Source: Siphonodentalium dalli
Taxonomy: Eukaryota; Mollusca; Scaphopoda; Gadilida; Siphonodentaliidae
Assembly (NCBI GenBank): GCA_032622095.1
Contig: CP136067.1
Span: 132,993,990-133,057,989, forward strand
Length of the DNA stretch: 64,000 nt
Direction: 5' to 3'
In this document: one piece after another, positions 1,345 through 48,734 of the stretch
Numbering within the stretch: position 1 is the first letter of the stretch
Layout of the letters: every line of letters starts with the position of its first letter
Position numbers and translations under genes: made by a program
The notes under the pieces: generated by a model
What the model saw: only the letters and a program-made list of their open reading frames with translations
Told to the model about the DNA's origin: nothing
Databases searched by the model: none

Positions 1345-4182
1345 AAATCAAGTATCAAGTGCCGACATTCGACCACGATAGCCGCATATAGCCAAAGACA
1401 TTATAATTCCTTTGTCTCCACCATTTAGTTGTCAGTGGCTGAGCACGTCAATACTGTGAATATCGGGTAAGATATATTAGGGACAATGACGTACACGGTT
1501 CATTATTTCACAAATAAGAGTTCGATGATGGTATTATACAGTTTAATCGAAACGATCGATGTTCAGTAAAATGATAGAATGTTGTTTATAGCAAGACAAT
1601 TGCAGATATCGATGTATTTCCTTACACGAAAACGGTACACAAACTAACATCGAACACTGGTCGGCGACATTTACGGATAAAATAAATAAATCACAAATGG
1701 TAAAGTTTCCATTAATTTACCAACTAATACACAAAATATTACTTTCGAGAAACTAGTGTTATTGACATATATAAGTAACAATGTTGTGATAAACATTTTA
1801 ACTACAACTGGAAGTGTTTGATACTGCTACGTATTTATAAGATTACAAGTACATTTAGCTGTAAGTAAAGAATCCAACAATTCGTATTCATGGCGACATT
1901 GTACTACACGTATTTATGATGGTCGGTGTTTTATCACCAACGAGAATCGGACCTTTCGCATCTTGGTCGACAACAGATAATTATAACGAATAGCTATTTG
2001 TTATTTGCTATTTCTAGCTATTCGTAGAAATGACTACGAGTCTGTGTGTAAGACAATCGTGCTTGCAAATCGCAGTAAGGTGATTACGGTACAGCGTGCC
2101 GTGATTATTTTGTACTTAATTGTGCCGTTATCACGTCACAGCTTAGGATTTTGTGTTTCGCAAATGTCTCGTGCTTCACGTCGACGAATGGTATGATTGC
2201 CACCAATAGATACAAATTAAAGCACATGGTGATCACAATTTAGGGTCATATTCTCAGAGTCAACTTCCACATTGAGGAGCTGAGTAACGATCACGAACTT
2301 ATTACTATATCATGTATTTGTGAGTTTTGTTGGAAATCCGAACATGTAATCGTATAGAGAGAAAGACGACAACAAATATAAAAAACACAAATTCTGTTAA
2401 CATTGTACCCTATTCGTATCAGTTATTTTTGTCGTTCAAAATTTGAAAGGTCTCTAATATGTCAATCAGTCCACTGTGAATGGCGACGAATTAAATTCTT
2501 TCACTCTGTCTCCAAAACCGATAATAGAAATAATCAGCCAGATTAAAACAAATGATTATATTATATCACGAGTATGGGCTAAATGAGTACGGGCTAAATG
2601 AGTACGAGTAAATCAGTGAGTAAATGGGTACGAGTAAATCAGTAGATTTAGCAGGGTGTATTAAATAATGCCTTAGCAGTGTCACGATAATCAATGGATT
2701 ACCAGCATACCGACCTAAATGGAGATTTGTATGGAAATTTCATTTTTGAGTTTGACAGCCGTTGGTATTTACGAAACCCGATTTGATTAGTCAGCCTTTC
2801 TATGAGAAATGACGGGAATACAATGGTTTGTTTAAAGAATGAACGCAATCTTTATAAGTTGCAAACTATTGTGCCCTAATCTCCATCTGCATATTATGCA
2901 TACAAAATATGTTCGAATTTGCGCAGCTGCCATCCTGTATTGCGTGTCCACACATCTGTCAAAATTGCCAGAAAAACTTTCATTAAATTATAGTATCTAG
3001 CTACATATTGCAACTTTCTATTGGTGAATTGTGAAATAACATAATATGTATATACGATCGTTTAATTGCTTACTGGACATACAACGAGTTATTGCACTAT
3101 TTATTCTTAAATTCATGTAAATGTCAATCGTATAACAACTTATGTAATTATATACATTTTACTGCGTATATAGTAGACAGTGAGGTATGTACAATTATTA
3201 TTAGTTAGTCGTTCACACCCAGGCTACATCCCTCTACGACGAATTGTCAGTAAACTTGCTAGTTAAACTTGCCAGTTTGTGATCGTATATACGCTGAAAA
3301 GCCAGGCCTGATACAGTTAGTCTTAGTTTAAACATATTTTGTTGTAGTGAATTACTAAAAGGGAAATGGCCACAAGGTTTTTTCTTCTTAAATGCAGTCA
3401 GACATAACAACACAGTTACTTCAAGCTCTAGCTACAAATTTGTTTCTTTCTGGATAGCGACATTCATTTCTAGTATGCTTTATTGCTAGACATGATTTAA
3501 CTTATTACATGCAGCACCAATTCGCACGACCTAATTTCTTTGTGATTTGCAATTTTTCGTATGCTACAACATACGTTTATGACTGATTGCTTGTGAATGC
3601 GCTTAAGAGGACCCCAACAAAATTCCACCCGTTATTAAGATATAATCTCTTCAGGAACACATTGATGACTCGAGAAAATTTGGCAGGATGTATTAAATAA
3701 TGGGCGTTTTAGACATCATAATTAATATTTCCCGTGCAAGATGCACTATCATTAAACATTGCTCGGTGGGCGCGGTGAGCTGATCAACTCATCGTCGATA
3801 AACCATAAAGACCATTGTATATCGAACATATTAAGCGAGAGACTTTGTCAAAAAATATCATGCATTATAAATTGAAGTGATGGAATTCTAACACTGGTAC
3901 AGTATACTATCAATACGACAAAATTAGCAATTTCCGGTGTCGGGTATACATGGCGGGTGTGGTCGTTTATATATACATGCATAAGGAATCTCTACTACGA
4001 TTGATCAACAATGTAGTGTTCATTTTCATCGCATAAGAACAATCTCTACCACAGTGCACCAGTCATACTTCCTTTCCGACTGTCAACGGCTGGGTTTTTC
4101 CAGCAAAAATGCCGTACTCGATCCTCCCAAATTCCGATGTCAGATGTGCGTTGAGAACAGAACGGAGATTTTAGATGTATAG
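1345..4182. other. no gene recognised
   Basis: 2.8 kb of AT-rich non-coding sequence. A short imperfect tandem repeat around 2573-2650 (units like gggctaaatgagtac / gagtaaatcagt) is the only local structure I see. A phrase gtattaaataatg recurs near 2655 and 3690. The 63-residue frame at 2005-2196 has no recognisable domain. Confidence 0.5.
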
Positions 4183-4445
4183 TGTAACACGCCCCTGTGA
4201 TATGCACCTTTAATTTGTATCCCTTAAAGTATGATGGGGGAACAACTGTTTATTGGAGATATATCTAAAATATTCCCAACTACATTTTGTAGAGGAACCT
4301 TTGTACCTCGTTTTACCCCACAACATAGGAGAACCTGTAGCAGAAGTCGGATGTGCTTAATCATGGTGCGAACCCTCTTGTGGAGTTGAATCATGTTCAG
4401 ATTGCAGGAATATTGTATAAAATAGAAATTTGATGATCAAGCAAG
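4183..4445 (+). repeat. 5' LTR fragment (U3 part)
   Basis: It begins TGTAACACGCCCC and aligns with 8597-8845 over about 250 bp with scattered substitutions. Shared blocks include atctaaaatattcc, ctacattttgtagaggaacc and cggatgtgcttaatcatggt. It is cut off where the gag frame begins. Confidence 0.8.
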
Positions 4446-4746
4446 GACGCAAACTGCCACACAAAGTGCCTTATCCTTGTCCGGAATGTTTTATGTCTAC
4501 GATGGCGATGGCTCTAAATTCAAAGAATTTATCAAACAAGTGGAAAGATATTGCCGAGTCATAGGCACCGATTTTGGAGAATATTGGTTAGTAGCACTAC
4601 AACGAACTGGAGGCCCTGTAACAAATTTTATGCAACGATTTCAACGAGAAAACCCCATAGCCTCTTGGGAACAAATTAGGGAAGAAATGACGATCAGATA
4701 CGACAATGTCACAACATTAAGGACGATTCGCCAAAAGCCCCTATAA
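4441..4746 (+). pseudogene. gag-like fragment of the gypsy element
   Basis: An open frame of about 100 codons, ATG at 4477 but open further upstream. It reads as a retrotransposon capsid segment: the phrases YDGDGSKFKEFIKQVERY and WEQIREEMTIRY match the usual gypsy Gag pattern (F-x-G-D/E-x-x-K-F-x-E-F-x-x-x-x-E, then W-x-x-L/I-x-x-x-x-x-x-R-Y). The N-terminus is missing and the frame stops at 4746 with no zinc knuckle. Confidence 0.65.
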
Positions 4747-5142
4747 AATATACACATATCTGTGGAAAGGATAAGAGTCTAAGAAAAATGGCAACCAACG
4801 CATTTTCTGATAGTGTTTAAAGAACAAAAATGTTCAATTACAATTAGTGGGAATATCTTTTGAATTACAATGTATATGTTTAGGAAATCGCCTTGTACCA
4901 CTAGTACCAGACATACAAATTGATAGTTTGATCAGGTTAAAAAGCCAGGCTGCATTGAATCCAGATGTTGTCTTCTGAGCTCTGTAAATATAGTTGGCGG
5001 CAGTTTTGGATTGTTTAATACGCCTTATTTAGAAGGAACATTACTTGTCTTGATAGTAAATAACACTGATAAATTTTAAAAACTCAAGAAAGGCTGTGTT
5101 GTTGGACGAGTTGAAAATGTAAATAATGCTGAAATAAATTAT

Positions 5143-6060
5143 GTGCAATCTTATGATAATAAACTGGACTCACAAGCTAGTCCAAGCAATGTAATTAAAA
5201 TTGCAGATGTTGAAATTAATGCACCCAAAGATAATACAGACTTTGTTAGAAACTTACTAAAAGTAAACCGTGATCTGTTTGTGGCTACTGATTCTCAGTT
5301 AGGCTTTACTGACACAAATGTACAAATGTCAATAGATACACAATGTCATCAGCCTATAGACATGAAACCATATAGTGTTCCATTACTAAAGAAACTTATA
5401 ATGAACAAAGCTGTTGACGAAACGATTGACACAGATGTCATTGAAAAGTCAAGGCCACCTTGGGCTTTCCCCTGCTTACTTGTAGGCAAGAAAGATGGTA
5501 CACAACATTTCTCTGTCGACTTCAGAAAAATACTCCCAAGAATCAATGACTTATTCAAATTACTAAATGGGTCAAAGTTTTTCACCTAATCAGTGGATAT
5601 TGGCAAATCAAATTAGACGAAGATGCACAACAGAAGTGTAGCTTCGTCTGTCACAAAGGACAGTACAATTTTAAGGTAAAATTAGCCTATGGATTGGTTA
5701 ACACTCTTTCAAGAATGAATGAGTATTGTCCATAATTGCCTTCATTGTATTTGATTATCTTAATTTTCAGTAATAACCCGAGAAGAATATGTCCAACATA
5801 TTGAAAAAGTCTTTGGTAGACTCTGTGAATTACGTAAATGCAGCTTCTCCCAAAAAGAAACTAACTATTTGGGTTATAATGAAAAAGGAGCCCAATCTGA
5901 TAGGAAGAAAGTCCAAGTAATTCGAAATTTAACACCCACTCCAAATGAATGAGGAATTCGCTCATTTTTAGGCATGGTTGGATATTATAGACGATTCAGT
6001 CCAGGCTTTAGTGCCATTGCAACTCCACGCATAGAATTAATAATGATACATTCAAATTTA
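5143..6060 (+). pseudogene. gypsy reverse transcriptase, disrupted
   Basis: The frame at 5143-5589 holds the start of a Ty3/gypsy RT: HQPIDMKPYSVP, then RPPWAFPCLLVGKKDG and SVDFRKI (the usual S-P-W-x-x-P-x-x-L-V-x-K-K-D-G and x-D-Y/F-R block). After a stop the similarity continues around 5590-5710 (GYWQIKLDEDA, FKVKLAYGL) and 5790-5990 (REEYVQHIEKVFGRL, then FLGMVGYYRRF of the thumb/connection). The catalytic Y-x-D-D region near 5745-5775 is degraded (reads DYLNF) and several stops intervene, so no active enzyme is encoded. Confidence 0.8.
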
Positions 6061-6249
6061 AATGGTCTTCAGAATGCCAAAGAAGTTTTGACCTCAATAA
6101 AAGATATGTCGTCTTTGTCGACGCTCCCATAATTGTGTTGGTGCCTGTTTAACACAACCTATGGATGAAAGTGATCTCTTAACAGATGATGAGACAGCTG
6201 AAACCCCGATTTAACATATATAACAAAAAACTTAGTGGCACAAAGCAAC

Positions 6250-6490
6250 GATGAGAAAATAATGCTTTGCCATTCACTACGCCTTACGAAAGTTTGATCA
6301 CTACCTTACAAATTACTATGTTGTAATTAGGACAGCATTAACCATCAGAATACCTCCTGACAGACCCAAAAAGCTACAGAAATGGGGCATGGATATTGTC
6401 GGTTATAACTGCAAAATAGAATACATTCCAGGTCCTTTAAATATATGTGCAGATATATTTAGTCGTCTTCCACTCAAATCATAATCAAAA
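6250..6490 (+). pseudogene. gypsy RNase H domain remnant
   Basis: Plus-strand reading around 6275-6480 gives the RNase H end of pol: A-L-R-K-F-D-H-Y-L, then RPKKLQKWGMDIVGYNCKIE and CADIFSRLP. The last is the standard N-x-x-A-D-x-x-S-R gypsy motif. Stops and shifts separate it from the reverse transcriptase. Confidence 0.75.
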
Positions 6491-6829
6491 CAATGATAGT
6501 GATGACACTTCCACTGTTGAACCTGAAATAAATAATAAAGCCTACGAAGTCAATGCATCAAACTATAATAAATGTAACCCTAGAAAGTTCGTTGATTGCA
6601 AACCTCCTTTTGAAGAAATGGACTTCAACTTACTGGATATAATATGAATGATGAACAAGATACAGATCATAGTATAGTAGAGTTGAAACGACAATATAAC
6701 AGTAATAACCCTAATCCTCAAGTATGGGAGAATTATTTTGTAATATAAGACATTGTGTATTATATAAGTAACCCTTCTGATTACCCTGTACTATGATTAT
6801 GTATTCCGGCACATATCCATGATTCCCTC

Positions 6830-7060
6830 TTGAGGCATAGATAATGGCCACATGGGTACCGATAAGATGTTCAATTCCTTAAAAAGGAAATATTATTGGA
6901 TAAATTTATATAAGGATATTTACTGACATTGTGAAATTGCATTCCATGCCAAAGTATAAAGATGCAAAATAAATCTCATCCGATGCAGGAGTATGACACA
7001 GCCACTTACCCCTTTGCTAAAATTACTCTAGACTTGTTTAAAATCAATTCATTGCTGTAT
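6830..7060 (+). pseudogene. gypsy integrase N-terminal fragment
   Basis: Translation near 6848-6950 gives HMGTDKMFNSLKRKYYWINL followed by a stop and H-C-E-I, matching the H-H-C-C zinc-binding start of retroviral/gypsy integrases. Downstream, FAKITLDLFK (about 7013-7042) resembles the strand carrying the first catalytic Asp of the DDE core. The remainder of the core is missing. Confidence 0.65.
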
Positions 7061-7239
7061 ACGTTAAATGAACCAAATACAATTAAAGATATGAATAAAA
7101 TCAATCAGGACTCTTTGTCCTCAGTTTGCGTCATCCCCAAAAATTGGCATAAATTGTGAAAACCAAGAACAACTGGAACAAATAACCTTATCCCCTCCTC
7201 TCGATATGTTAGAATTAAAACCCGCATGTGTAGCCTCAT

Positions 7240-7936
7240 CAAGTAAACTAAAATTCGAAAGTTATTTCGAGGCAATAATACGTATCTGGTTTCATCGTTT
7301 GATTCCAAAATACTGCCAAAATTTAACATTTCAAGAGTTAAGTTGCGGATACCTTTAATTTCAGAATTTTCTTCATTACAAGACGTAACCATTCCACCAA
7401 TTCAAAAAGCCGTCTGTAGCATACCTTTGGTACATTTAATGGAAAGCCTAAAGGCCAAAGATGAAGTTCGATTCACTTCCCCCTTCCCATGTAATAAAAT
7501 ATTGTATGCACTGGTCACTGTAGCAATATTGATAATGTTATATATAATATTCGGCTCAGAACAAATTGTTGACATTATACAGGTCCCAATTTCAAAAAGA
7601 CTGTAATAGGTTAATGAGAAAAGGCAGATTGGCTAAAGAAAAATAGTGAGAGTGTGTGAGAGTGGTGAAGATACAGAAGACATCGAACCAGCAGAAGCAG
7701 ACATACTTCAACCTGAAGGACGATATAAAGTAATACTTTATCCAGAAGATGTAATAACAGAAAGATTCGACGCTGGACTTGTCAACGCATCGACCTTGAC
7801 ACCAGTGCCGCACAATACTGCTGGAGCCTCCATATACCTGAACAATTTGTCAAATGAGACCCACTTCAAGAATGAAAATGTTGAAGGTGGTCCGAAGATT
7901 TACAATATACAGCCGACCGTGCCGAAAAGGAACTGA
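7240..7936 (+). pseudogene. third ORF remains of the gypsy element, possibly env-like
   Basis: An open frame to 7606 ends with one strongly hydrophobic stretch (residues ILYALVTVAILIMLYIIFG, encoded about 7496-7552) followed by a short tail, as in a C-terminally anchored membrane protein. A second short frame at 7646-7936 is acidic and has no hydrophobic segment. Their position between integrase remains and the 3' LTR is where env-like ORFs sit in some gypsy lineages. No envelope family motif is recognised, so the env reading is an inference from position and the membrane segment. Confidence 0.35.
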
Positions 7937-7943
7937 GCTGAGC

Positions 7944-8215
7944 TGTTCGAAATTCACAAATAAATGAAAAAATAATCATAACGATCTTCAGCAAAGAAAA
8001 TTCGAAATACATAAAGAAATGAAGAGATTATTCATAACGATTTCAACAAAGAAGATTCGAAATACATAAAGAAATGAAGAGATTATTCATAACGATCTGC
8101 AGCAATGAAGATCCGATACTTAAAGAAATGAAGTGATTATTCATAAAAATCTTCAGCAAAGATTTGATACATAAAAGAACTGAACAACAATTCAGTGAGA
8201 ATGATTTGATACATA
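7944..8215 (+). repeat. tandem repeat, about 55-bp unit
   Basis: Four to five decaying copies of a unit containing ttcgaaatacataaagaaat and gattattcataacgat, between the third ORF and the 3' LTR of the gypsy element. The last copies are shortened. Confidence 0.8.
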
Positions 8216-43126: not shown

Positions 43127-43197
43127 AATATGAGGCGAAGTGAGATTAATATCGGGCGAGGCGCTAGCCGAGCCCGATATTAATCTCGCTGAGCCTC
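43127..43197. mobile_element. 71-bp hairpin MITE
   Basis: Almost the whole insert is one hairpin (atatgaggc..gagattaatatcgggc with its complement around cgctag). The sister arm of the inverted duplication lacks it and reads gtgtcatat|agtcagg at 36848/36849, which marks the empty site. Confidence 0.75.
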
Positions 43198-43314
43198 ATA
43201 TGTCACCGTAGCCGGCAACAACGAGCACTGTAACGATTTTATCATGTCACCCACATATCATGTTTTCCGTGTGATAATTTGAATTACTTATACGAAGTTC
43301 ATTACCTGCCAGTA

Positions 43315-43821
43315 CACACCCTGTAATCAATGTTGTGAGGTTCGGAAGGAAATCCGGTTCCGTGTAGTTGTTCGTCCGCTCCCTGCAAGTACAACTCCGC
43401 TCCCTGTATGTGTTTTGTACAAAAGTTAGACCCGCCAATATTTTGATACAATTATGGAACGAATATCCAGGTAAGTTGGTTATTTCCTATTCCATCAACC
43501 AATGGATGTATTATTTCGATTAATTAGCGAGAAATATATGCTCCAGGTATTTGTTTTTTAGTAAATTATCGCTTTACCAACTCAAATTGTCAAGAAAATA
43601 AGACATTGCCACTGAATGAAAACATTCTTATTTTAATTCCCCGATGTTTTTCTTCAATATTGTGGTTATGTGGGCTTCGTTGTGTTATATTATATCTATA
43701 ATTACCAACATAGATGCATTTCGGCCCCCAAAAAGTGAAATTTGACGCATAATTTACCAATTTTCTGTCAAATAATTTGACAACTCCGCGTAGGGAAGTT
43801 GACAACGCCGAGGTTGTGTAG
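43315..43821 (+). repeat. left TIR of the YqaJ element
   Basis: Inverted match to 47802-48307. The first about 114 bp are identical between the two TIRs, and 43471-43578 differs at about three sites. Only the about 42 nt ending at the exon 1/intron border diverge strongly. Confidence 0.9.
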
Positions 43822-46210
43822 CAACGATCTCATTTTTTAGATCGGTACGTATGCCTACATCGTGCGTGGCGGTATATACAATATGGCATACGTGTATAGA
43901 GAGCTGTGTACACATATCATTGTCTTTATATAGTATTTTAGGCCTACATTTTACATATATACGGCATATTTCGATGTTTAAATTAAAATGTTAGTATAAT
44001 CGTTTTCGACATCCATGTACATTTGTTTTAATATTCGTAGACACATTACAAATTAACCTTATACCACATATACCTATATATAGTATATAGGCCTACTGTT
44101 TTAATCAAATGTATTTTATTGTATGTGCATAAAGTGACTTATAAATACGTCATATGGGCCGACTGCTAAAGTGCTAATTGATATGTATTGTATTATTTGT
44201 CATCGAAACAATTTAACACATGTCACTATAAAGGGTGTGTATATGCCTGCATGCCATTGTGTGTCACTGTACATGCGTATGTGTATGTGTATATTCATTT
44301 AGTATTATTGCGATACTAACAATTGTCTTTCTTTCTTTTCCAGACCACCACATAAACGCAAATTAGACAACACGGGTAAAAGGTCATCGACGTGCAAAAA
44401 ACAGTTATTCCAGAAAGATACCCCGGAAATATCAAACATAGACCCACACCCTTCAGGACCACCACCTCCAGACCCACGGCCGTCAGACCCACCACCTTCA
44501 GATGCACCACCTTCAGACCCACCACCTTCTGACCCATCATTTTCAGTCCCACCACCGTCAGACCCACCACCTTCAGATGCACCACCTTCAGACCCACCAC
44601 CTTCTGACCCACCACCTTCAGTCCCACCACCTTCGAGAATAGAACGAATAGCAGAAATGCTTCCAGAGATATTTGAGAGATTCAAAGAGGCAATGTGTGG
44701 CGAGGAATTCGCATCGCTTCTTGAAATGGTGGCTGATGGCAGTTATCCAATGGACAACATAGCACTTAAGCTTCTTTTGGAAACCACGAGATGGTTTTCT
44801 CAGAAAACAACGGTCACAATGTGGTATTGGAAGGAAACAACCCAATTCTGGAAAATGGGTTACCGTTTGTTTGGCGACAAGTTCATTTTAATGATGAGTG
44901 GTCCGAAGTGTTCCGGACAGTTGGTGTTGGGGGAAACATCTAGAGGCGAGTTCGACCCAGCCCATTCCAATATCAACTTTGCAGTCCCATCTTTGTCAGT
45001 CCTACGCAAATTCAATCGGTCGCAGTTCCCACAGGAGCTGCGACCGGGTGTTATCACACAAGCGCTGAATATACCGACATCAACTGAAGACGACTTCATT
45101 GTAAGTTTTGATGGAAAAAAGATCGTCCCTGGTGTAAACGAAAATGGGGGTGATGTCGATCTATTCGGACATGAAACCCATTTAAATGTGTCCGAAGAAA
45201 ATATGAAATTGGATAATGAAATCGAGATAATAACAGATACTGTAAACCTTGTGACACCCGAATCAGATCGCGAAATCGATGTTCCCTTAGTCCGACAAAA
45301 GACAATGGAAATCGTGAAGTTTTTGAGTGAAAGACTGAATACTATACGGAGCATTAAATTGAAACAAGAACTGACATTAGAACGCCTGGACGAGAAAAAC
45401 AAGAAATCTAACGAGAACCGATACAATTATGCCATGAGTAGCATTCGCTCTTCTGTCCATCAAATTGATGAATGTGTTACAAAAACTTTGACAGAGATTG
45501 GCTCAATCGCCGAGTGCTGTAGCAAATTGTCGGGTACGCAAAACTTTGTATCAACGTCGACAGTATCAAGGTCCTCACAACACAATTGGATCGGACTAAA
45601 ACCTCCCGATTCCTTGCCCGAAGATTATCAGGGTAACCCAAATTTCACAATGCAGCGCACTCCTGAGTGGCACAGTCTTCGATCTACGTTTAAAGTGACT
45701 GGCTCCACGTTACACAATGCCATCGGTCTTAGGACGCTCAAAGAGAAGAAGTTGCATTATGATAAAGTGTATCATGGTAAGGAGATACCGGTTGATGCGT
45801 TGACACAAGAGAGAATGGAGCATGGGACACTAAATGAGCCAAATGCTGTGGCTACACTCACCGGGGTTGTCTTGCCGTTTCTTCACCCGGGCGCTGCCTT
45901 TGTCGAAGTGGGATCATATATTGTCAACAGGACAGAACAGAACGAACCGCTGATGTTGGTATCGCCCGACGGCAAGATTTGCCATGTCTCAGATAGCGAT
46001 TGTCTCGACCCAAGCTTGTGTCGACTCTTGTCAGGATGTGAGTTCAAATGTCCATTTCCGAATAAATATAAGACGCCAGCGGTATACGATTTCCCAAATT
46101 ATTATGCATGCCAGGTTCTTGCGGAAATGGCCAGCATGGGAACGGACACATTATTGTTTATGTGTTACGGAAAGGAGAGCTCTACGGTTTTTGAAATTAC
46201 AGTTCAATGA
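43454..46210 (+). CDS. YqaJ/lambda-exonuclease-like protein, two exons (43454-43470, 44344-46210)
   Basis: Exon 1 in the left TIR is ATG plus 14 nt with a GTAAGT donor. Exon 2 follows a ttttccag acceptor (44343), and the phases fit, giving 627 residues. The N-terminus (MERISRPPHKRKLDNTGKRS) looks like a nuclear localisation signal. A PPSDPPPSDA-type repeat (residues about 45-105) links to a conserved-looking region (about 115-230), a coiled-coil-prone segment (about 320-395) and a YqaJ domain (about 444-627). This has RTPEWHSLR, HGTLNEPNA (499-507), VSPDGK (Asp548), CEFKCP (Glu572, Lys574) and YYACQVLAEMA (Gln596), the E / D / E-x-K / Q order of PD-(D/E)XK exonucleases. The frame stops at 46210, but C-terminal domain sequence continues in another frame to 46556, so a frameshift lies near 46195-46208. 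Likely role: DNA end-processing for the element (inference). Confidence 0.8.
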
Positions 46211-46556
46211 GCAGCTGTGGACGGAGATCTCACGGGAAGCAGAACAACTGTATAGCTGCGAGAACCCAAAGCGACCAACCAAAACATCTGAGTTGACACG
46301 CCCATTGAAAGAGAAAATTTATATGTTTTCGCGTAAAAATGTTAGGTTTGTGGGAGAGTTTCCTTCTCGAACATTAACACCGGAACTCGAGGTTGTTTCC
46401 TCCGATGCTGCATCGCCGTATGTTGCTGCAGGAATAAACGTGTCCGATGATGTGCAGTCATGTACAGAAACTGTCATCGCTCTGCAGACAGCACTGGAGA
46501 CATCAAAAGAATGTAGCAGAAATCTACATCGACTGTCCTCGAACGCATGGGTGTAA
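46193..46556 (+). pseudogene. frame-shifted C-terminal part of the YqaJ-like protein
   Basis: The overlapping frame continues the nuclease with FNEQLWTEISREAEQLYSCE, then EFPSRTLTPELEVV and a stop at 46556. The link to the main frame needs one indel around 46195-46208: a true mutation, a sequencing error or a programmed shift. It overlaps the tail of the opposite-strand zinc-finger frame. Confidence 0.6.
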
Positions 46557-48168
46557 CTGAAGCGTTTTCCACATAAATCACATTTGGAGCGGGTCGTCCC
46601 GGCGTGAACGGCTTCGTGCCGCTTCTTGCCCGTCTTCGATTTGAAATCTTTTCCACAACCCTCGTAAGAACAAGGAAAAACACATCCCATGTGTGCAACC
46701 TTTACGTGCTGTTTCATGGTAGCATTGTCGTAAAATTCCCTAATGCAGGTTGTACATTTGAACAATGTCCCTTCGTGCTTTCGTCTGTTCCTCCTGAGTG
46801 AATCGCGGTTCACCAACGTGAGTCCGCAGTCTACACACTTGTAGTGGACACCCGATGGCGTCGTTGGTAGCTTCCGTTTACAGATACGTACCGGCACCAC
46901 AGGAGTCCGGACCGGCACCACATGAGTCCGGCTACCCTCTGGGCGTTCTGAAGAAGCAGGAGTCCGGATAACTTCTGGGGATTCTGGAGATGACGCCAGC
47001 GATGCCGATGCCACGACTCTTGTGTGTTGCAGTGGGGTCATGGGGGTACATCCCATATCATCTAGATCCGTACTGAAAATAGACATGAGAATTTGACATG
47101 TGATTGCAAATGATGTATGTGTGTGGAAACAGAATTACCTTAGATCCAAATAAAATCACAGCCAGCCGGGGCGGGGCGTTATCAATTTAAAAGGCCCATG
47201 CACGGTACAACTAAATTTCGTGAAATTTTACGGGTACGTAATTTAATAAATTTTAATTTTGAAGCTACTTTTAAAATAAATAATTGATCCTCACGAACTA
47301 TATGTGTGGGGCTTTAAATAGCATATACTTGACTGACAATATTTTCAATGTAAGTCAAATCTTACTATTAATAGGCCTATCTCAATTCATCCTGTATTTT
47401 CGGTATTTGTTATGAATCTAATTATATAATGATAAAGTTAAAACTATAAACTTTGAAATGAAACTCAAACCTGGTGACATGATCGATATTCCCTATTTCG
47501 TTCTATTAAACATAGGCCTATAATTTTATATTCTATATCCCTATAACGTGGGGTGAATTCGGACAGTTTATAATGTAGGTTTTTAAAGATTAACTTCCAC
47601 AGAACTAACAACAATGCTAATAATTGTCTATCAAATTAACTACAGGTAGGCTATAGTTGGTTGTGAACATCTATATGTAGGCCTGCATGTATAGGCCTAT
47701 ATTCCGCCTATCCCCCGGCGAATAATGTGTAGGCCTATCCATGGCAATAATACATGTAGGCCCTAATAGGCCTACGTGCCGCTCTAAACAATGATCACTG
47801 ACTACACAACCTCGGCGTTGTCAACTTCCTCACGCGGAGTTGTCAAATTATTTGACAGAAAATTGGTAAATTATGCGTCAAATTTCACTTTTTGGGGCCG
47901 AAATGCATCTATGTTGGTAATTATAGATATAATATAACACAACGAAGCCCACATAACCACAATATTGAAGAAAAACATCGGGGAATTAAAATAAGAATGT
48001 TTTCATTCAGTGGCAATGTCTTATTTTCTTGACAATTTGAGTTGGTAAAGCGATAATTTACTAAAAAACAAATACCCGGAGCATATATTTCTCGCTAATT
48101 AATCGAAATAATACATCCATTAGTTGATGGAATAAGAAATAACCAACTTACCTCGAAATGCGTGCCAT
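46319..48168 (-). CDS. C2H2 zinc-finger protein, two exons (48168-48152, 47072-46319)
   Basis: Exon 1 (17 nt) lies in the right TIR with a GTAAGT donor. Exon 2 follows an attttcag acceptor; the join is in frame and gives 256 residues (MARISSTDLDDMG start). A Ser/Pro-rich N-terminus with a basic ICKRKLP patch precedes fingers at about 83-105 (first His replaced by Asn in DSLRRNRRKH), 110-133 and 137-162 (FPCSYEGCGKDF). A fourth is begun (SKCDLCGKRFSYTHAF, about 167-183) but never completed. From there the frame is antisense to the YqaJ C-terminus, so the natural end seems lost, possibly by an internal deletion near 46.54 kb. Probably binds element DNA, such as the TIRs (inference); it could also be a captured host gene. 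Confidence 0.75.
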
Positions 48169-48307
48169 AATGGTATACAAATGTTCGCGGGTGTAACTTT
48201 TGTACAAAACACATACAGGGAGCGGAGTTGTACTTGCAGGGAGCGGACGAACAACTACACGGAACCGGATTTCCTTCCGAACCTCACAACATTGATTACA
48301 GGGTGTG
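47802..48307 (-). repeat. right TIR of the YqaJ element
   Basis: Reverse complement of 43315-43821. It carries exon 1 of the C2H2 gene (48168-48152). Confidence 0.9.
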
Positions 48308-48734
48308 CAGTAATTAAATTTGTTGTCTATGGCTATTAACTTATGTAACGTCACAGTGACGCGTCATGGGCGTTGAACGTCAACGCATTGAGTCAATGGC
48401 TAATCACCAGAAGCTGGACAACAAACTTGAGTTTGATAGTTAATTTATGAGTGTTTAGAATTTCTCAAATAAATCACATGCAGGTTTTGGTATATGGTAC
48501 TATGTTTTTAAATTAACAGAACTTGATTTCCGACAGATATCCCTTTTCTTGGCGCCAAAATACACCGAAAATATACCCGAGGCGGCAGAGTTCCATGAAA
48601 ATCAAAATGGCGGACATCGACCCCATATAGGAACCCTGAGGGGGGATATGGATTCCATATGGGACGGGCTACAAAGATGACGACCCGATGTCTCCTGATA
48701 TGCCTCTACCAACGGAGCGTCCTCATTGGTCGAT

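Follow-up and report, generated by a model that had tools for sequence, protein, structure and literature searches.

The window analysed here is a stretch of 64,000 nucleotides from the scaphopod mollusc Siphonodentalium dalli, whose genome comprises 2.23 Gb in 9 contigs, and the subject is a transposable element occupying positions 43315–48307 of the window, on contig C7. The element is bordered on both sides by the pentanucleotide CAGTA, seen directly in the sequence as a target-site duplication at 43310..43314 and 48308..48312, just as it had been read in the first-pass annotation, which was made from the letters alone. The terminal inverted repeats (TIRs) had been recognised there, too, but their lengths, given as 507 and 506 bp, are in fact 543 and 541 bp. 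The left one (43315..43857, forward strand) starts with CACACCCTGTAATC and lies on the side of the first exon of gene A; the right one (47767..48307, reverse strand) exhibits 95.4% identity to it.

Two convergent genes, both predicted to be spliced, are found between the element's ends, in agreement with the earlier description. Gene A, on the forward strand, has its predicted exon 1 within the left TIR (43454..43470; MERIS, followed by a GT donor) and its exon 2 at 44344..46210, the two together coding for 627 residues up to a stop that follows a frameshift. Exon 2 covers a proline-rich 15-bp tandem repeat with PPSDP units (44440..44649), the first catalytic Asp of a P-like RNase H fold (D262 in VSFDGKK; 45110..45112) and, inserted in that fold, a YqaJ/lambda-exonuclease domain (45665..46141) with its Asp (SPDG) at 45968–45970 and its Glu (EFK) at 46040–46042. 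The nuclease, previously proposed from the motifs HGTLNEPNA, SPDG, EFKCP and YYACQVLAEMA of the same 627-residue protein, was confirmed by a Pfam scan (YqaJ, PF09588, at residues 447–605; 38.1 bits, E 2.3e-9). Gene B, on the reverse strand, has its predicted exon 1 within the right TIR (48152..48168; MARIS, with a GT donor), while its exon 2 (46319..47072) codes for a C2H2 zinc-finger protein and is cut at an internal deletion junction (46537..46539) that has no shared bases and one extra base.

Longer and shorter copies of the element

A search of the genome with the left TIR yielded at least 43 matches (40 scored among 49 candidates), comprising ten close copies with two ends, ranging from 2.1 to 11.4 kb, as well as more diverged families at about 70%; an eleventh match, E5_224, has a single recognised end. 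The longest copy, E2_136 (C2:136330899-136342255), measures 11,356 bp, and all nine other close copies lack inner sequence when compared with it by Blast, their main aligned blocks being 97.4–100% identical. The window copy is devoid of positions ~1770–8149 of E2_136, with flanking blocks 99.2 and 99.5% identical, so that the idea of a deletion derivative of a larger element carrying a recombinase proved correct. The loss amounts to about 6.4 kb out of 11,356 bp and includes the second Asp, the D(2)H and the Glu of the transposase. Comparison of the translations with those of the long copy indicates that protein A of the window is shortened by a frameshift near 46197, i.e. upstream of the deletion, and is hit also by the deletion junction near 46538; protein B is without its last fingers from the junction on and continues into antisense A sequence. 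The duplications, the TIRs and the DDE fold described below make cut-and-paste the default. The window element is best explained as a DNA transposon of this type that has lost inner sequence and is non-autonomous.

Concerning the deletion junctions of the nine shorter copies, 1–3 bp are shared in seven of them, two of these seven being duplicates of one insertion; the junction of E2_91 was not resolved in this comparison. The copy E4 (C4:85928058-85932170) carries, at about 2870–3492 and between conserved blocks, some 0.6 kb with no counterpart in E2_136.

The consistency of the 5-bp duplication, which the first-pass annotation had proposed to check, was found in 12 of the 14 elements with both ends located, all 12 having an exact 5-bp duplication and none a longer one. 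These represent nine independent insertions of the window's family, E6b from the 70% family, as well as two distant elements, S30 and S48; E2_1164 was left out of the count, its flanks being identical to those of E2_1166. When the left and right flanks were exchanged among the elements, no match was obtained in 182 combinations. It should be noted that the insertions L013 (C2:116684011) and L018 (C2:116441251), located 243 kb apart, have both their flanks and the 5-bp duplication in common, each with a separate small insertion near the right end; one of them is therefore a segmental duplication or an assembly duplicate.

An ATG with 14 coding bases and a GT donor is present near TIR position 140 in 19 of the 20 ends of the ten two-ended close copies—at exactly 140 in 16 ends, at 142, 144 and 151 in the others—with only the left end of E2_1164 giving no match. 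Across the copies, MERIS is read at the end of gene A and MARIS at that of gene B, so that the TIRs stay distinct, each holding the first exon of its own gene; both genes are predicted to start inside the TIRs, facing each other, and to be spliced. In E2_136, gene A was modelled with four exons bordered by GT/AG and 1,402 codons without a stop, and gene B codes for a 277-residue protein with five C2H2-like motifs. A convergent C2H2 open reading frame (ORF) was found in four of the six lineages read in the genome (E, S30, S34 and S46), the B proteins of S30 and S46 sharing an N-terminal SLEESA motif outside the fingers (33% over 288 aligned columns). A C2H2-like motif is found also near the N-terminus of protein A in S30, S34 and S46, and upstream of A in S48. 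A further copy of S34, on contig C5, has one recognised end, with three mismatches.

Protein A and the position of its nuclease domain

Besides YqaJ, the Pfam scan of protein A detected, below the cut-off, PF21787, the RNase H domain of the P type, in its N-terminal part (22.3 bits, E 1.7e-4, starting at model position 62); this domain was matched at E≤0.1 also in 8 of the 20 rows of the relatives' alignment A1. The predicted RNase H fold of protein A is closest to that of the Drosophila P transposase, for which passages of two papers give the signature D230-D303-[C/D](2)H(D339)-E531 together with a helical insertion domain (PMC8230255, PMC7776569). The corresponding residues of the long copy are D262 (β1), D799 (β4), D1141xxH (after β5) and E1306 (α4), so that the complete signature of the P superfamily is present, and a helical region lies between the D(2)H and the Glu, within the range aligned to P. 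These four positions are kept in 26/26, 56/58, 52/53 and 51/53 rows, respectively, of an alignment of 62 sequences, many of which are fragments, the counts covering the rows with letters at the given position. The residues of the nuclease are similarly well conserved—Asp in 40/40, Glu in 40/41, Lys in 39/42 and Gln in 42/44 rows—and constitute the PD-(D/E)XK core with D, ExK and Q typical of YqaJ and lambda exonuclease. The motif FDGQW was considered as the site of the first catalytic Asp and rejected, since the profile alignment placed its Asp on the second Asp of P, the true first one being located upstream of YqaJ.

The position of the nuclease within the fold was assessed by comparing a profile of the 26 rows having the N-terminal part with that of nine P-like ORFs from the same genome. 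The part following YqaJ corresponds to template positions 284–342, ending at the second catalytic Asp of P. With the intervening block removed, both parts merged into a single 136-column match (score 69.8, P 2.3e-7, probability 93.5%), compared with a score of 50.5 and a probability of 58.8% for the uncut profile. In 60 trials with the N-terminal part of the block-removed profile shuffled, no score exceeded 50.2; a shift of the cut by 40 residues in one or the other direction lowered the score to 57.2 and 52.9, and a shift by 80 or 120 residues to 50.4 and 30.6. The N-terminal part reversed scored 17.4, compared with 30.4 for the real one. On this basis, protein A is modelled as a DDE transposase of the P-element type with a lambda-exonuclease-type nuclease (YqaJ, PD-(D/E)XK) threaded into its RNase H fold, the predicted point of insertion being after the strand with the first Asp and before the strands leading to the second one.

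Relatives and affiliation of the family

Among 5.8 billion proteins, three queries retrieved 28, 24 and 9 relatives, most of them without a name; the animals named, with proteins filed as uncharacterised or 'YqaJ', are the bivalves Mercenaria, Mytilus, Pinctada, Ruditapes, Dreissena and Mya and the annelid Owenia. The fusion is seen also in bivalve proteins of 1,427–1,581 residues (P0005, P0009, P0018 and P0040), and the protein of the third exon has 66 matches in the same genome. The rows of the alignments are mostly 24–49% identical to the first row. The evolutionary tree was based on 52 of the 62 rows, namely those covering the region used with 250 residues or more. In it, the six lineages of the studied genome are interleaved with database proteins and require that the label change five times, four or more of these changes being forced by well-supported branches; the diversity of the family is thus old. 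One relative, P0050, bears the title 'MAG: YqaJ viral recombinase family protein [Candidatus Thiodiazotropha sp.]'; Thiodiazotropha being symbionts of bivalves, this entry probably represents DNA of the host that was binned with bacterial sequence.

The genome as a whole is rich in YqaJ-bearing and P-like sequences, with at least 150 YqaJ matches (150 scored among 328 candidates) and at least 97 P-like RNase H matches (150 scored among 168 candidates), several in long open frames. Eleven YqaJ ORFs of 390–484 residues, whose scores are identical or almost so, are located within about 5 Mb (C7:18865403-23966809) outside the studied TIR matches and may reflect the local spread of a different element that bears YqaJ.

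With regard to known systems, the RNase H fold and the catalytic signature are shared with the P superfamily, i.e. Drosophila P, THAP9 and zebrafish Pdre2. The target-site duplication of P is, however, 8 bp according to passages of PMC7776569, whereas no element of the present family exhibits that length and 12 of the 14 have exactly 5 bp. P also possesses a THAP domain; here, no THAP domain was detected by Pfam scans of the window proteins, the ORFs of the long copy, four further ORFs and the 20 rows of A1 (the N-terminus being absent from several of these). Due to the length of the duplication and the lack of THAP in these scans, the family is not filed as P, and a plain P element was rejected. 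In comparison with P, the family has ends starting with CAC, a YqaJ nuclease within the fold, a spacing of about 340 residues from the second Asp to the D(2)H in the long copy, a second, convergent gene for a C2H2 protein, and TIRs of 0.54 kb carrying the first exons. P is further defined by a GTP-binding insertion domain and a 17-nt stagger; in the present family, the helical region between D(2)H and Glu falls within the aligned range.

ISL2EU (PHIS, Harbinger-like) is likewise an animal DNA transposon with two genes, one of them with a YqaJ nuclease. Passages describing it, however, place YqaJ in an ORF of its own, next to a DDE transposase of the Harbinger type, with 2-bp AT duplications and usually GG ends (PMC4482050; PMC9179366), whereas here it forms one polypeptide with a P-like DDE domain, the duplications are 5 bp long and the ends begin with CAC. 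ISL2EU was therefore ruled out by the type of DDE transposase, the duplication and the ends. The occurrence of YqaJ in two different DDE groups argues for a role of this nuclease in transposition.

Transib elements have 5-bp duplications and CAC ends, and these features, along with the RNase H fold, are common to Transib/RAG and the present family; this candidate was also rejected, the RAG1-core-like transposase not being the closest relative by fold. The left end of S48 (L048/L049) begins with CACAGTG next to the 5-bp duplication, the letters being those of the V(D)J heptamer; the family being P-like by fold, the likeness is regarded as convergence or coincidence.

The Tn7 proteins TnsA and TnsB, or the fused TnsAB, also combine a DDE transposase with a restriction-endonuclease-like nuclease, sometimes in one polypeptide, and generate 5-bp duplications. 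They belong to another branch of DDE enzymes and another subgroup of nucleases, and Tn7-type systems further comprise the regulators TnsC and TniQ. In the present family the nuclease lies inside the RNase H fold. Tn7 is cited as a mechanistic parallel only. Passages from the literature ascribe the cutting of the 5' strands to the restriction-endonuclease-like subunit and of the 3' strands to the DDE subunit, some of these being fused (PMC10761935), and report 5-bp duplications for a type I-F element (PMC10188703).

The first-pass annotation had counted longer members encoding a standard DDE transposase of a known superfamily with these ends as evidence against its reading: a DDE transposase is indeed encoded by a longer member, but not one of a standard superfamily, as witnessed by the P-like fold, the internal nuclease and duplications of 5 bp rather than 8 bp. 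No paper describing a YqaJ–P fusion was recognised among the titles, beginnings of abstracts and passages of the open literature, Repbase, Dfam and most subscription papers being outside this scope. A nuclease of the YqaJ type built into a P-like transposase appears to be a previously unnamed way of making a DNA-moving machine, and the family arguably represents a new superfamily beside P.

Proposed mechanism and its alternatives

Overall, we consider it fairly probable that the window element is a deleted copy of a two-gene transposon whose transposase A is P-like with YqaJ nested in it, whose protein B is a C2H2 protein, and in which YqaJ cuts or trims the 5' strand. The full-length form would encode one large transposase A and a multi-finger protein B, facing each other from the TIR-borne first exons. 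The TIRs would be bound by B and/or the N-terminal part of A, the probable binder of the ends being B or else, in S30, S34 and S46, the finger motif situated close to the N-terminus of A. The DDE centre would then cut at the CAC end and join the 3' ends to the target with a 5-bp stagger, while the YqaJ centre would cut or trim the complementary 5' strand, one polypeptide thus combining the two activities that Tn7 divides between TnsB and TnsA. Both the conservation of the nuclease residues and their nesting in a catalytic fold suggest action of the nuclease at the same DNA end. Taken by itself, the 5'-strand role, proposed by analogy, is tentative and rated somewhat below an even chance. The sequence analysis establishes how the element is built, its duplications, how the copies are related, the conservation of both catalytic residue sets and a predicted fold; activity, splicing, the sharing of tasks between the two centres and the function of B are inferred.

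Several observations weigh against this interpretation. The part preceding YqaJ, aligned alone, matches the template only weakly (202–272, which holds the first Asp; P 0.006, hhalign probability 6.2%). Among 100 versions of the N-terminal part with shuffled columns, one beat the real score with an odd and unexplained 134.1 over 11 columns, the next best being 22.1. E3 and S34, i.e. two of the 14 two-ended elements, lack a target-site duplication, the end of E2_1166 had to be placed beyond a 4-base insertion for its duplication, and the 12 kb examined for S27 and for S46 yielded no TIR. As regards gene B, S48 has no convergent C2H2 ORF of 120 residues, only one finger motif on the opposite strand near the right end, and S27 has neither such an ORF nor a finger motif in its 12 kb. 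Protein A of E2_136 has, in an open frame, Thr at residue 569, the position of the catalytic Lys of YqaJ, where the window copy, despite its deletion, reads EFKCP; E2_136 may therefore be without nuclease activity. Finally, the step served by YqaJ could be one that follows excision and not excision itself.

This last alternative retains the same P-like transposase and lets YqaJ resect the 5' ends at the donor gap or the excised ends, thereby feeding sister-chromatid repair, with more copies and internal deletions as its outcome. Enzymes of the lambda-exonuclease type, to which the YqaJ match points, are 5'–3' resection enzymes; the loss of inner sequence from all nine shorter close copies, with the 1–3 bp shared at seven junctions, is what interrupted gap repair predicts; and P elements transpose and form internal deletions without YqaJ, which makes it dispensable for the basic reaction. 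Deleted copies are, however, common in transposons having no such nuclease, the junction of the window copy shares no base at all, and the nesting inside the catalytic fold speaks for action at the same DNA end, so that a purely post-excision role seems rather unlikely.

A YqaJ part serving as a structural or DNA-binding insertion, with no need for catalysis, would suit the longest copy with its missing Lys, and some insertion domains of transposases are non-catalytic, such as the one binding GTP in P described in passages of PMC8230255; the retention of Asp, Glu and Lys in nearly all rows of so divergent a family makes this improbable. The chance capture of a cargo, e.g. a virus-derived nuclease, confined to this lineage is hardly credible, even though YqaJ domains are counted among the endogenous viral elements in a passage of a paper on a clam genome (PMC7826175), given the fusion in named bivalve proteins, the interleaving of the six lineages in the tree and the insertion point within the catalytic fold. 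The original suggestion of a nuclease and a finger protein mobilising the element without any transposase, understandable from the window element where these two proteins only are seen, is refuted by the 11,356-bp member, which has the same ends and whose gene A also codes for the catalytic part that is missing: the window copy is its deletion, and the 'YqaJ protein' is the first part of the transposase, carrying the first Asp.

Returning to the nested nuclease acting at the element's ends, a broader proposal may be offered with more reserve, as something short of an even bet: the family would be a distinct animal superfamily whose two-site protein does both end cuts, an independent eukaryotic invention of the TnsA/TnsB kind with a co-conserved C2H2 helper, and one source of the YqaJ genes swelling mollusc genomes. 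The cutting of the second strand by cut-and-paste transposases is a mechanistic problem that keeps returning, and a P-like enzyme with a second nuclease inside its catalytic domain makes it directly testable. The family also offers an identity for some mollusc proteins listed under 'YqaJ recombinase' or 'endogenous viral' in passages of genome papers.

Just to the left of the window element, at 43128–43201, there is a 35-bp inverted repeat (86%, with a 4-bp loop), which looks like a small separate foldback repeat.

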